Assembly: GCA_003169845.1 (NCBI GenBank)
Contig: PNAG01000015.1
Span: 1 to 34,017, forward strand
Direction of reading: 5' to 3'
Source: Candidatus Dormiibacterota bacterium
Lineage (GTDB): Bacteria; Chloroflexota; Dormibacteria; Dormibacterales; Dormibacteraceae
DNA: 34,017 nucleotides
Positions 2,707-5,349 of this stretch are shown piece by piece. The notes beneath the pieces are model-generated. The model was given only the letters and a program-made list of their open reading frames with translations. It was not told the DNA's origin and made no database searches. Positions within the stretch are counted from its first letter, which is position 1, and the number at the start of each line of letters is the position of its first letter. Made by a program: the position numbers and the translations under genes.

Positions 2707-2737
2707 ATGAGAGGGAACCATCCGGGTTCCCTCTCAT
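2707..2737. repeat. Perfect 13-bp inverted repeat overlapping a stop codon
   Basis: ATGAGAGGGAACC (2707-2719) and its exact complement (2725-2737) flank a 5-nt loop. On the minus strand the hairpin begins at the last base of the TAA stop of the 87-aa gene, so it could protect or end the sigma/Rieske message. No U-tract follows on the minus strand (CGACCGTG), which argues against a textbook intrinsic terminator. An operator or a leader stem for metK are alternatives. Confidence 0.6.
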
Positions 2738-3000
2738 TAGTTTCCGTTGCGCTGCCGGCTGTCCTCGGGCGACTGGCCGAGCAGCTGCGCCTGCAGGGCG
2801 AAGATGTCATCGAGGACGCGATCGATGCGCCTGCCCTCGAGGCGATGATCGGCGATCACCCCGGCGCCTTCCAGGTTCCGGCGCAGCGAGACTCCAAGCG
2901 GCCCGTCGATGCGTAGCTGACCACGCACCTGCGCCTCTTCGAGCAGCTGCAGGCACCGATCGAGCGCGAGCTGCCTGGACCTATGGCTCCTCAGCTGCAT
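2737..3000 (-). CDS. Hypothetical 87-aa protein, third gene of the sigma/Rieske module
   Basis: Starts at ATG 3000, one base after the TGA of the Rieske gene (TGACATG), so it is almost certainly co-translated with it. The product is small, soluble and highly charged, with no signal peptide or membrane segment and a single cysteine near residue 16. It contains an amphipathic Leu/Arg/Asp-rich helix-like N-terminus (LALDRCLQLLEEA) and a second helical stretch (RRIDRVLDDIFALQAQLLG). I do not recognise a family. Its position in a sigma-factor operon suggests an accessory or regulatory role, which is inference only. A perfect hairpin begins at its stop codon. Confidence 0.65.
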   Translation of the reverse strand: MQLRSHRSRQLALDRCLQLLEEAQVRGQLRIDGPLGVSLRRNLEGAGVIADHRLEGRRIDRVLDDIFALQAQLLGQSPEDSRQRNGN

Positions 3001-3001
3001 G

Positions 3002-3661
3002 TCAGGCGGTCCCGAGCACCTCGACCCGTCCGGCGGGCGTCACCCTCACGCGGACCGTGTTCAACGCCGGGAGCGGATATGTCGGGTCGGTCGACTTTCC
3101 CTCCGGGGTGAACGATGCGGGGTGGCACGGGCAGTCGAGCAAGTCCTGCCCGCCGTTCCACCAGAGCTCGCACGGGAGGTGCGAGCAGATCGAGGACACC
3201 CCTGTCACCGTTTCCCCGCGGCGGAAGAGAAAAGCGCCGACGCTGCCGGCCGTGACGCGCGTGCCCTGACCTTCCACCAGGTCGGACATGGCGGCGACGT
3301 CGATCCACCGGCCGCCGATGGGGTCGATCGGAGCGCCTCCGAGCTGTCGCTGCGCGACGGCGGCGGGCTCCAGAGTTCTTCCGACGAGGGCGCCGGTGAC
3401 CACTCCCGCAGCCACGCCAAAGCCTGCGACCAGGGCTGCGCGGCGCGTCAACCATGACTGGTTGGGGGCCGATTCGATGGCTTGCTCGAGGCGCTTGCGA
3501 AACGCCGGGCTCATGCGCTGCTGGCCCTGCCGCGCGCCGATCAGGCGGGCGGCGGCCGTGATCGCGGCCTTTTCCTCGGCATCCCCGCCCTTCAGCCTCA
3601 ACCGGCGGCCGTGCAGGAGGTCGGAAACGATCTTGTCCACGCGGTTTTCCGGCTTGTTCAC
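3002..3661 (-). CDS. Membrane-anchored Rieske [2Fe-2S] protein, candidate redox anti-sigma factor
   Basis: 219 aa from GTG 3661, which overlaps the sigma-factor stop (GTGA), so translation is coupled. Residues 1-70 form a charged, helical, probably cytoplasmic domain; the segment SPAFRKRLEQ resembles stretches near the membrane in bacterial anti-sigma proteins. Residues 72-96 are one hydrophobic helix preceded by a Tat-like twin arginine (TRRAALVAG), and Rieske proteins are commonly Tat substrates. The C-terminal half is a Rieske domain: box 1 C159-S-H161-L-P-C164 and box 2 C177-P-C179-H180. Cluster ligands would be C159, H161, C177 and H180, with a C164-C179 disulfide. The usual Gly of CTHLGC is Pro here. 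No cytochrome b gene is nearby, so a bc-complex role is unlikely; the ECF partner suggests signalling. Confidence 0.85.
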   Translation of the reverse strand: MNKPENRVDKIVSDLLHGRRLRLKGGDAEEKAAITAAARLIGARQGQQRMSPAFRKRLEQAIESAPNQSWLTRRAALVAGFGVAAGVVTGALVGRTLEPAAVAQRQLGGAPIDPIGGRWIDVAAMSDLVEGQGTRVTAGSVGAFLFRRGETVTGVSSICSHLPCELWWNGGQDLLDCPCHPASFTPEGKSTDPTYPLPALNTVRVRVTPAGRVEVLGTA

Positions 3662-4206
3662 GGGTACACCTTGACTTTGGCGGCTGCGCGCAGGGCGCGA
3701 AGCTGCATGACCTTGACTGCTCCTACGGTTGAGTGCATCTCCGCGGCCACTTCCTTCAGTGAATACCCGTGGAGGAAACGCAGCTCCAGCACGCGGCGGT
3801 AGTTGTCCGAGAGCTCGGCCAGGATCCTCTGCACGGTGTCGGCCCGCTCCTCGGAGGGTGGCGCCTGCGGGACCGCCAGTGCAAGGTCTTCGTGAAGCTC
3901 GGCTTCGGACAGTCCGAGCCGGGTGCTCCAGAAGCCGCCGAGCACCGAGCGGGCGGTGGCGAACAGGTACCCGCGGATGGCGCTCGCAGGCGACCCCTCC
4001 CGGAGCCGCGGGATCGCCTTCAGAGCCACCTGCTGCGTGAGGTCCTCGGCATCGGCCCGGTTGCCGACCCGCGCGTAGATGAACGCGTACACGATCTGCA
4101 GCTCGCCGAGCGCGATGTCCGTAGCGCGCGGCGCCATCGGGAGCTGGAGCAGTTCGCCGGGCTCGTCGGGCGCGTCGCTCCGTTGGTTCGGTGGGCCGGC
4201 GCTCAT
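3658..4206 (-). CDS. ECF-family RNA polymerase sigma factor
   Basis: 182 aa from ATG 4206; an in-frame GTG at 4230 would add eight residues but looks less likely. Region 2 spans about residues 37-90, including the NRADAEDLTQQV helix typical of sigma region 2. Region 4 spans about 125-175, with LSDNYRRVLELRFLHGYSL followed by a helix-turn-helix (KEVAAEMHSTVGAVKV). There is no region 1.1 or 3, as expected for an ECF (group 4) sigma. Its stop overlaps the start of the Rieske membrane protein by 4 bp. That arrangement is typical of ECF sigma/anti-sigma pairs, so the signal is probably sensed by that partner. Confidence 0.92.
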   Translation of the reverse strand: MSAGPPNQRSDAPDEPGELLQLPMAPRATDIALGELQIVYAFIYARVGNRADAEDLTQQVALKAIPRLREGSPASAIRGYLFATARSVLGGFWSTRLGLSEAELHEDLALAVPQAPPSEERADTVQRILAELSDNYRRVLELRFLHGYSLKEVAAEMHSTVGAVKVMQLRALRAAAKVKVYP

Positions 4207-4288
4207 CTCAGCGCAACGCCAGGGGCGCACGCGAGCCGCTCAAAGGATTTCACCGCTGATCCACACCGCTCTCGGCACTACCGCTGCA

Positions 4289-4294
4289 GGTTAC
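4289..4294 (-). promoter_or_regulatory. Possible ECF-type -35 element
   Basis: GTAACC on the minus strand, about 83 bp upstream of the sigma ATG, resembles the AAC-containing -35 boxes of ECF promoters and could mediate autoregulation. I cannot identify a convincing -10, so this is only a candidate. Confidence 0.2.
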
Positions 4295-4337
4295 GAGAGG
4301 CCTGGGCGGATTCAGCTCTTTAACCATGGATAGAGAC

Positions 4338-4375: not shown

Positions 4376-5275
4376 CTACGCGTGTCGAGGAAGCCACCTG
4401 CTGCGCCGGCGCCACAGGAGGTAACCAAGCCCGCCGAGGAGGATGAAGGGTCCGATGACTCCGAGCCCAACCACCACATAGTTGACTGTGGCCACGAAGT
4501 TGTGCGCCGCGTCGGTCAGCGCGGTCGCAAAGCCCCAGTTGTCTGAAGCCGGCGCCTGGGCCGTCGCCGCCGCCTCGGTCATCGTGATGGTGAGAGCGCT
4601 GAACGAGGTGTGGTCGTCGAGGTACTTGATCTGGCCTTTCAGCTGCTCGATCTGGCCGGTGATCTGTCCGATCTGGTTCTGGACGGCGATCATGTCGTTG
4701 ATCGTCTTGGCCTGCGTCAGCAGGGCCAACATCGCCGTCCGCTGGGCTTCGGCGTTCGCGAGGCGGGTCTGCAGGTCCACGTACTGGCCGCTCACCTCGG
4801 TGCCGGTGATCTGCTCGTTCTGGACCTTTCCAACCTTCGACAGCTGATCGATGGTGGTGTCGAAGTTGGCCGCCGGGACCATGAAGTTGATGGTGCCGGT
4901 CCGAATCTGGCTGTCGACCGGCCCGGCCTGCGCGACCGTTCCGGCGATGTAGCCGCCCTCAGCCTCGACAATCGTTCTTGCAAGGCTTAGCTTCGAGTCG
5001 AAAGTGCCGTAGCCAACGCTCATGCTCAGCTGAGCCTGGCGGATGACCGGCGGCCCCTGGAGCACAGGGACAGTGGTGCCGGAATTGGTTGGACTGGTGG
5101 TGTCGCCGGGCTGCCCGTTGATGGTGGTCGGCACGCCTGACGAACCGCCCGACGCGCCGCCCGACTGAGCTGGGAGTTTCGGCAGCGGAGCCGGCCCTGC
5201 GCTCGATGCAGCGCTGCCGCCGCCGCATGCGGCCGCCGCCACGAGGATCGCGATGACTACGAACGTCTTCTTCAT
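4376..5275 (-). CDS. DUF4349-type membrane lipoprotein
   Basis: 299 aa. I start it at ATG 5275, which has a GGAGG Shine-Dalgarno six bases upstream; a longer frame opening at 5341 adds a non-signal-like extension into the divergent ABC-F gene. The N-terminus is a lipoprotein signal (MKKTFVVIAILVAAAAC, lipidated Cys17). A Gly/Ser/Pro/Thr-rich spacer follows, then an extracytoplasmic alpha/beta part with a coiled coil (roughly residues 175-240, rich in Q, N, I and L), and finally one transmembrane helix followed by RRRSR. This order matches the DUF4349 family, whose biochemical role is unknown. A strong hairpin follows the stop. Confidence 0.8.
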   Translation of the reverse strand: MKKTFVVIAILVAAAACGGGSAASSAGPAPLPKLPAQSGGASGGSSGVPTTINGQPGDTTSPTNSGTTVPVLQGPPVIRQAQLSMSVGYGTFDSKLSLARTIVEAEGGYIAGTVAQAGPVDSQIRTGTINFMVPAANFDTTIDQLSKVGKVQNEQITGTEVSGQYVDLQTRLANAEAQRTAMLALLTQAKTINDMIAVQNQIGQITGQIEQLKGQIKYLDDHTSFSALTITMTEAAATAQAPASDNWGFATALTDAAHNFVATVNYVVVGLGVIGPFILLGGLGYLLWRRRSRWLPRHA

Positions 5276-5349
5276 TCGACGGCCTCCAAAGTGAATTTCC
5301 GAGCTGTCTGACCAAACGCCGGATGCGACGGCACGTAACATTCGCCGAC

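Follow-up and report, generated by a model that had tools for sequence, protein, structure and literature searches.

What does a Rieske iron-sulfur protein do beside a sigma factor? The question is raised by one locus in the window, that is, the whole stretch of 34,017 nucleotides (nt) analysed here (contig PNAG01000015.1 of assembly GCA_003169845.1, Candidatus Dormiibacterota bacterium, phylum Chloroflexota). There, the gene of an extracytoplasmic function (ECF) sigma factor overlaps the gene of a membrane protein with a Rieske domain, and a gene for an 87-amino-acid (aa) protein follows. An original prediction, made from the sequence alone, took the three genes for a redox-sensing sigma module. 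Our results show that the sigma/Rieske pair is a real and old family. As to its function, we consider it probable that the sigma factor is paired with a likely membrane anti-sigma factor and released when the predicted Rieske [2Fe-2S] cluster outside the membrane is altered, lost or not built. The parts of the pair are the following (ORF, open reading frame; Tat, twin-arginine translocation).

3658..4206, minus strand: ECF sigma factor gene, 182 aa, BldN-like (Pfam matches above cut-off; nearest structure sigma-BldN; in the Rieske-linked sigma clade).
3002..3661, minus strand: gene of a predicted membrane anti-sigma factor with a Rieske domain, 219 aa, GTG start (ORF, Pfam match, sigma pairing in 80 of 80).
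3446..3661, minus strand: N-domain, residues 1-72, three predicted helices, likely sigma-binding (AlphaFold models of low to middling confidence; weak, indirect link to RsbN).
3368..3448, minus strand: twin-arginine (R73-R74) Tat-like signal anchor, residues 72-98 (in 79 of 81 members, an arginine pair adjoins the stretch of highest hydrophobicity).
3005..3313, minus strand: Rieske [2Fe-2S] domain, residues 117-219.
3170..3187, minus strand: box 1, C159-S-H161-L-P-C164 (C-x-H in 75 of 80 readable members).
3122..3133, minus strand: box 2, C177-P-C179-H180 (invariant in alignment A3).

The gene layout was confirmed from the sequence and its ORFs. The sigma and 219-aa ORFs share a 4-nt GTGA overlap, and the 87-aa ORF starts one base past the Rieske stop. 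The 182-aa protein reaches 26.7 bits for Sigma70_r2 (cut-off 24), 44.3 for Sigma70_r4_2 (cut-off 25.7) and 63.1 for TIGR02937 (cut-off 42.9), with Sigma70_r4 also above its cut-off. By these matches it is an ECF sigma factor. The nearest solved structure to its profile is sigma-BldN (6dxo_A, profile E 4.5e-28). The BldN family TIGR02952 is where the protein scores best, at 65.4 bits, far under the curated equivalog cut-off of 206.

The 219-aa protein matches the Pfam Rieske family PF00355 over residues 119-191 (35.3 bits, cut-off 20.3), and the intact box pair first described (C159-x-H161, C177-x-x-H180) is present. In an alignment of 15 sequences (A3), all four ligands are invariant, as are C164 and C179 of the disulfide type and R73. 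By Pfam match and ligand pattern it is a Rieske [2Fe-2S] domain protein, the cluster itself being predicted. The helical N-terminus and the single Tat-like anchor hold as sequence features and in the AlphaFold prediction.

Is this arrangement an accident? In named genomes (one titled Dormiibacterota, six Chloroflexi), sigma factor, Rieske protein and 87-aa ORF keep the same order at 7 of 7 loci. The sigma/Rieske pair also stands in all 29 first-fetched loci of other genomes (L012-L040). So the three-gene arrangement is more than chance.

We then surveyed 301 genomes of the same phylum with profiles of the N-domain (A1), the sigma factor (A2) and the Rieske domain, using a six-frame scan of fetched stretches. 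These comprised all A1 places but G144:C62, plus ten Rieske places without an A1 match. Residue counts below refer to 81 members: 80 unique ORFs with N-domain and Rieske domain (duplicates removed) and one locus added by hand (L157). The whole protein is matched at E<=1e-8 in 67 of the 301 genomes, and A1 at E<=1e-3 in 74 of them, at 91 places. An A2-type sigma ORF lies directly upstream on the same strand in 80/80 ORFs with N-domain and Rieske domain, and likewise in L157. From sigma stop to N-domain start, the distance runs from -14 (overlap) to +217 nt. The expected co-occurrence of residues 1-70 with this sigma subgroup is thus complete, and no N-domain-bearing homologue that was fetched sits in a cytochrome bc/b6f operon without a sigma gene.

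Rieske ORFs without a significant N-domain (n = 14) behave differently. In 11 of them (L149-L156 and the own-genome L002-L004), the fetched stretch lacks an A2-type sigma. Another two, in L097 and L099, lie behind a sigma/anti-sigma pair as its second Rieske gene. L157 has both sigma and Rieske parts, and its N-terminus resembles, by eye, a diverged N-domain. Among the 91 A1 places, the Rieske domain is in the same ORF at 79; the eightieth member, L158, surfaced only in the profile scan. The other 12 places include a contig end with a sigma gene upstream (G095), three sigma-adjacent proteins whose outer parts are of other kinds (L141, L144, L159), a DUF5667 protein by Pfam with no sigma gene in its stretch (L148), a second short copy (L095), three short sigma-less ORFs (L111, L115, L143) and the unfetched G144:C62. 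At the last two, in L097 (minus strand) and L099 (1494-2247), the N-domain is naturally fused to a sigma-like domain. Each fusion ORF has no Rieske part and lies just before a sigma/anti-sigma pair and its second Rieske gene. It is possibly a decoy or a self-inhibited sigma.

The converse search, with the sigma profile, gave 97 places at E<=1e-35 in the 301 genomes. A Rieske partner is present at 80 of them (L157 included), and G095 ends at the contig edge. The remaining 16 fetched places hold neither an N-domain nor a Rieske domain, two of them (L230, L233) ending too early to judge. In a FastTree phylogeny of 136 sigmas, rooted on an ECF sigma of the own genome, the 81 Rieske-linked sigmas form one clade with support 0.92. 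Since 12 of these 16 sigmas also fall inside, the clade is mainly, not exclusively, Rieske-linked. Three of the 12, L236, L238 and L239, are long sigmas extended at the C-terminus; the two that were scanned both carry Clp_N, and one also a ClpX-type zinc finger. One homologue, 74% identical (P0174), is named Candidatus Baltobacterales, perhaps from a mislabelled bin or a recent transfer.

Could the 219-aa protein be an ordinary Rieske subunit of a cytochrome bc1 or b6f complex, with a sigma neighbour by accident? Its homologues are automatically named 'cytochrome b6-f complex iron-sulfur subunit', and b6f-type Rieske proteins are among the nearest Protein Data Bank (PDB) sequences and structures. 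Against this, it reaches 33.8 and 33.3 bits where the NCBIfam b6f cut-offs are 154 and 250, and its sigma partner is fixed. Both cytochrome b matches of the own genome lie on contig C4 (the window is on C3), and one, at C4:230895-231449, has a separate Rieske match (C4:231678-231857) some 230 nt away. The bc complex can therefore dispense with the 219-aa protein. The scores below cut-off and the lack of a cytochrome b gene alongside speak against such a subunit, and we give this explanation hardly any credence.

If the protein is dedicated to the sigma factor, what would its Rieske part report? A twin arginine adjoins the most hydrophobic stretch in 79 of the 81 members, mostly as S/T-R-R, with a few differing contexts. 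This motif suggests a Tat substrate, with predicted export. Box 1 retains C-x-H in 75 of 80 readable members. Where its histidine is replaced, only aspartate is found (C-[ST]-D), in L018, L096, L103, L106 and L158, from four families. The proline of box 1, earlier proposed to tune the cluster in place of glycine, is unsupported in that role: the position holds Gly in 57, Pro in 17, Ala in 5 and Ser in 1 of the 80 readable members, and 16 of the 17 prolines belong to the window's own family.

In box 2, the place of the serine that gives bc1-type clusters a higher potential holds Ser in 0 of 77 readable members. The tyrosine place holds Phe in all but one readable member, two with an insertion being out of register. 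For yeast, the available part of one account (PMC12954380) gives potentials lowered by 130 and 65 mV in Ser and Tyr mutants of the Rieske protein. Of the control Rieske proteins, ten have a CPCH box that can be read; Ser is found in four of these and Tyr in one, so the loss of these residues is not unique to the sigma-linked family. Our guess is a cluster of medium or low potential.

The signal may also be of another kind. The Rieske fold could serve an anti-sigma factor as a loading check, in which failed cluster building or failed Tat passage (iron-sulfur supply or Tat state), not outer redox, frees the sigma. The twin arginine retained in 79/81 would fit this, and the recurrent exchange of the box-1 histidine for aspartate (five members, four families) suggests that normal redox behaviour is dispensable in places. 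However, box-1 ligands kept in 75/80 and a disulfide cysteine pair invariant in A3 are what a working exported cluster would show, and exported redox genes adjoin in some lineages. We hold the loading check to be rather unlikely; it is a variant within the preferred explanation, and the chances of the two overlap.

Both forms of the anti-sigma reading depend on the N-domain. AlphaFold places helices at residues 4-16, 28-44 and 52-64, followed by the anchor, with block values of the predicted local distance difference test of 55-74 (low to middling). Membrane proteins of the DUF5667 type offer a comparison; at their loci an ECF sigma gene lies upstream in 23 of 25 cases. An hhalign comparison of A1 with their N-termini gave a score of 23.2 (33%), and 25.8 (51%) with distant members only; among the controls, the highest of 40 column shuffles scored 12.4 and the reversed comparison 14.1. 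Searched against 177,635 PDB sequences, the DUF5667-protein N-terminal profile ranked RsbN (6dxo_D) first, weakly (E 0.085). The merged N-domain profile again ranked RsbN first, also weakly (E 0.024). A1-like N-domains adjoin sigmas also where the outer part differs (L141, L144, L159).

Several results weigh against this assignment. A1 alone gave no significant match, 69 residues of RsbN reached 0.1%, and RsbN is not among the matches listed in the fold comparison. As for class I anti-sigma factors (ASDI/zinc type), no anti-sigma or zinc-finger family is among the 13 Pfam families listed for 31 N-domains, although the N-domain may yet be a zinc-free class I domain that has no Pfam model. The window's N-domain has no cysteine, hence no H-x3-C-x2-C. 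Because of the weak links to sigma partners of the DUF5667 and RsbN types, the N-domain is likely an anti-sigma domain.

How is the pair expressed? Upstream of the sigma gene lies a compact conserved element.

4279..4295, minus strand: CGTAACC-TGCAGC-GGTA, a promoter-like element in two parts ahead of the sigma gene (some form in 76 of 81 family operons).

The form GTAAC-N6-7-xGTA occurs within 260 nt of the sigma domain in 65 of 81 members. With exactly N7 and C or G at the variable base, it is found in 53 of 81, where 200 letter shuffles averaged 0.12 and never exceeded 1. Over the whole fetched upstream region, and with A accepted at one base in three members, the count rises to 76; the element was not found in L027, L120, L130, L131 and L104, the last of which is cut off 553 nt ahead of its sigma stop. 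Ten of 13 families have the strict form. Several own-family members carry the element roughly 1 kb away from the sigma stop, ahead of a CHRD gene. Among 39 control regions ahead of other ECF sigma genes, either linked to DUF5667 or from the own genome, 5 have the two halves at N16, 7 at N17 and 2 at N7, with shuffles below 1. The Rieske-linked family has some longer spacers too: 1 case at N16, 8 at N17 and a slight surplus at both N14 and N18, for the most part in one near-identical group. Two loci (L023, L024) carry an additional GTAAC 17 nt ahead of the element's CGTA, which is the normal ECF spacing. Five others (L113, L116, L118, L119, L121) show, by eye, a second GTAAC-N7-xGTA copy about 44 nt past the first.

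In four loci of one family (L124, L125, L128, L129), the sole ATG, GTG or TTG start by the rule used is 25-26 nt after GTAAC. Transcription should therefore begin earlier, which puts CGTA at the -10 place and leaves GTAACC closer than a normal -35 would be. The element is a candidate promoter of the sigma operon; the sigma may read both halves, or another protein may bind one. If this is the sigma's own promoter, the accepted ECF promoter spacing is challenged.

Targets elsewhere are less clear. The own genome has 8 element matches against 10 in the reversed control, which is the chance level, and 42 family genomes show no clear excess. One of the seven other own-genome matches precedes a CHRD-like lipoprotein gene (L193). 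Relatives of this lipoprotein, 38-45% identical, precede the sigma gene in six own-family loci (L014, L015, L017, L019, L021, L022), with the element further upstream; one of the two relatives scanned reaches the CHRD cut-off. In other lineages, the genes behind the Rieske gene encode YtkA, Lipoprotein_15, cupredoxin, DoxX-like and DUF4331 proteins and a second Rieske protein. These identities come from ten representatives chosen among 86 ORFs, many of which have no identification. Cupredoxin is found in L037, L100 and L114, YtkA in L113 and L133, and the second Rieske gene in L099. The neighbours suggest a shared exported, partly redox or copper theme, though it is not uniform.

Such neighbours would also suit a different role, that of an electron carrier in an extracytoplasmic redox chain. 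The Rieske protein would then be the main target of the sigma factor, and the N-domain a docking or targeting extension. Some lineages do add exported redox proteins (cupredoxin, YtkA, second Rieske), the Rieske ligands are conserved, and anti-sigma binding is only predicted. But the sigma gene always precedes the ORF with N-domain and Rieske domain (80/80), while the added genes vary by lineage. Moreover, the N-domain also occurs fused to a sigma-like domain, and it is weakly linked to DUF5667- and RsbN-type partners. We consider the carrier role improbable.

Returning to the anti-sigma factor, the following course can be proposed. The overlapping sigma and Rieske genes follow the family-conserved element, which may act as their promoter. 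The N-domain, of about 70 residues, would stay in the cytoplasm and bind the sigma as the class III anti-sigma factor RsbN does. Rieske proteins are known to travel folded through Tat. To judge from the conserved motif, the Rieske domain would load its [2Fe-2S] cluster and cross the membrane folded by this route, the twin-arginine helix remaining as anchor. An oxidant or a metal might alter the outer cluster or cause its loss, or the cluster might not be buildable at all; the protein would then be degraded or rearranged and the sigma freed. Free sigma would transcribe its own operon, together with the lineage-dependent genes whose products are exported (CHRD lipoprotein, cupredoxin, YtkA, Lipoprotein_15, second Rieske). 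A broader proposal joins two claims. In a phylum-wide module, a Tat-delivered outer Rieske cluster would sense for an RsbN-class anti-sigma factor, the ECF sigma being free or bound according to the state, or even the mere presence, of that cluster, and the sigma clade would read a compact promoter, with -35-like GTAACC and -10-like CGTA 6-7 nt apart, about one helical turn under the ordinary ECF spacing of 16-17 nt. We offer this joint proposal tentatively, its chances being a little short of even.

What of the third gene?

2737..3000, minus strand: 87-aa gene, lineage-specific third gene (no Pfam or NCBIfam match over cut-off; own family only).

All 16 main-copy loci of the own family have it behind the Rieske gene; none of 14 loci outside that family does. 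Neither the protein nor its relative in L005 has a Pfam or NCBIfam match over cut-off. The gene is an accessory of the window's own lineage. From the redox-sensing module of the original prediction, the dedication of the Rieske protein to an ECF sigma is supported (80/80); the proline tuning and the 87-aa protein as a core part are unsupported. At the end of this gene, before metK, the window has a perfect inverted repeat (2707-2737) with arms of about 12-13 bp, core GAGAGGGAACC/GGTTCCCTCTC and a 5-nt loop. It is hairpin- or terminator-like, with no obvious T run. The DUF4349 gene before the module (4376-5281) and metK after it (1273-2514) stay adjacent in much of the own family; neighbour clustering found DUF4349 in 11 loci and metK in 14.

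If the anti-sigma reading is correct, an outer Rieske cluster would be a new route for reporting redox or metal state across the membrane. Dormibacterota and other Chloroflexota would thereby have an extracytoplasmic redox response open to testing. In these genomes, many proteins that carry the name 'cytochrome b6-f complex iron-sulfur subunit' or 'nitrite reductase/ring-hydroxylating ferredoxin subunit' are probably regulators.

RsmA (Streptomyces) and RshA (Mycobacterium tuberculosis) are both cytoplasmic. They are described as anti-sigma factors with a [2Fe-2S] cluster (PMC3427169; PMC8346170), so the kind is already known. In the available parts of these accounts, RsmA is of the HATPase_C family and RshA of the zinc type with cysteine ligands, and neither is described as a Rieske-cluster membrane protein, unlike the protein proposed here. 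A Rieske sensor outside the membrane on an anti-sigma factor was not found in the literature searched.

The closest system is RsbN/sigma-BldN of Streptomyces (PDB 6dxo). According to the parts available of two accounts (PMC7406223, PMC8103513), it pairs a class III membrane-anchored anti-sigma factor, with a three-helix domain, and a BldN-like ECF sigma; neither paper mentions a Rieske domain (0 occurrences). The window's system resembles it in the sigma profile, nearest to sigma-BldN, in the merged N-domain profile, which ranks RsbN first, if weakly, and in the Rieske protein being encoded with a BldN-like ECF sigma in 80/80. It differs in its weak and indirect sequence link and in its sigma, which scores 65 bits where the BldN family requires 206. 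The DUF5667 membrane proteins share a weakly similar N-terminal profile, a hydrophobic stretch, an outer domain and an ECF sigma gene upstream. However, their outer part is DUF5667, not an iron-sulfur domain, and their own anti-sigma role is inferred.

With the Rieske proteins of bc1/b6f complexes and arsenite oxidase, the 219-aa protein shares the fold, the cluster ligands and the disulfide cysteine pair. Unlike those of bc1/b6f, it has an added sigma-linked N-domain and no adjoining cytochrome b, and its family lacks the box-2 Ser (0/77) and has Phe for Tyr nearly throughout. Finally, anti-sigma factors of the FecR type insert via Tat; FecR is not known to carry a metal cluster and senses a partner receptor. 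The predicted insertion of the Rieske protein would likewise be Tat-dependent.
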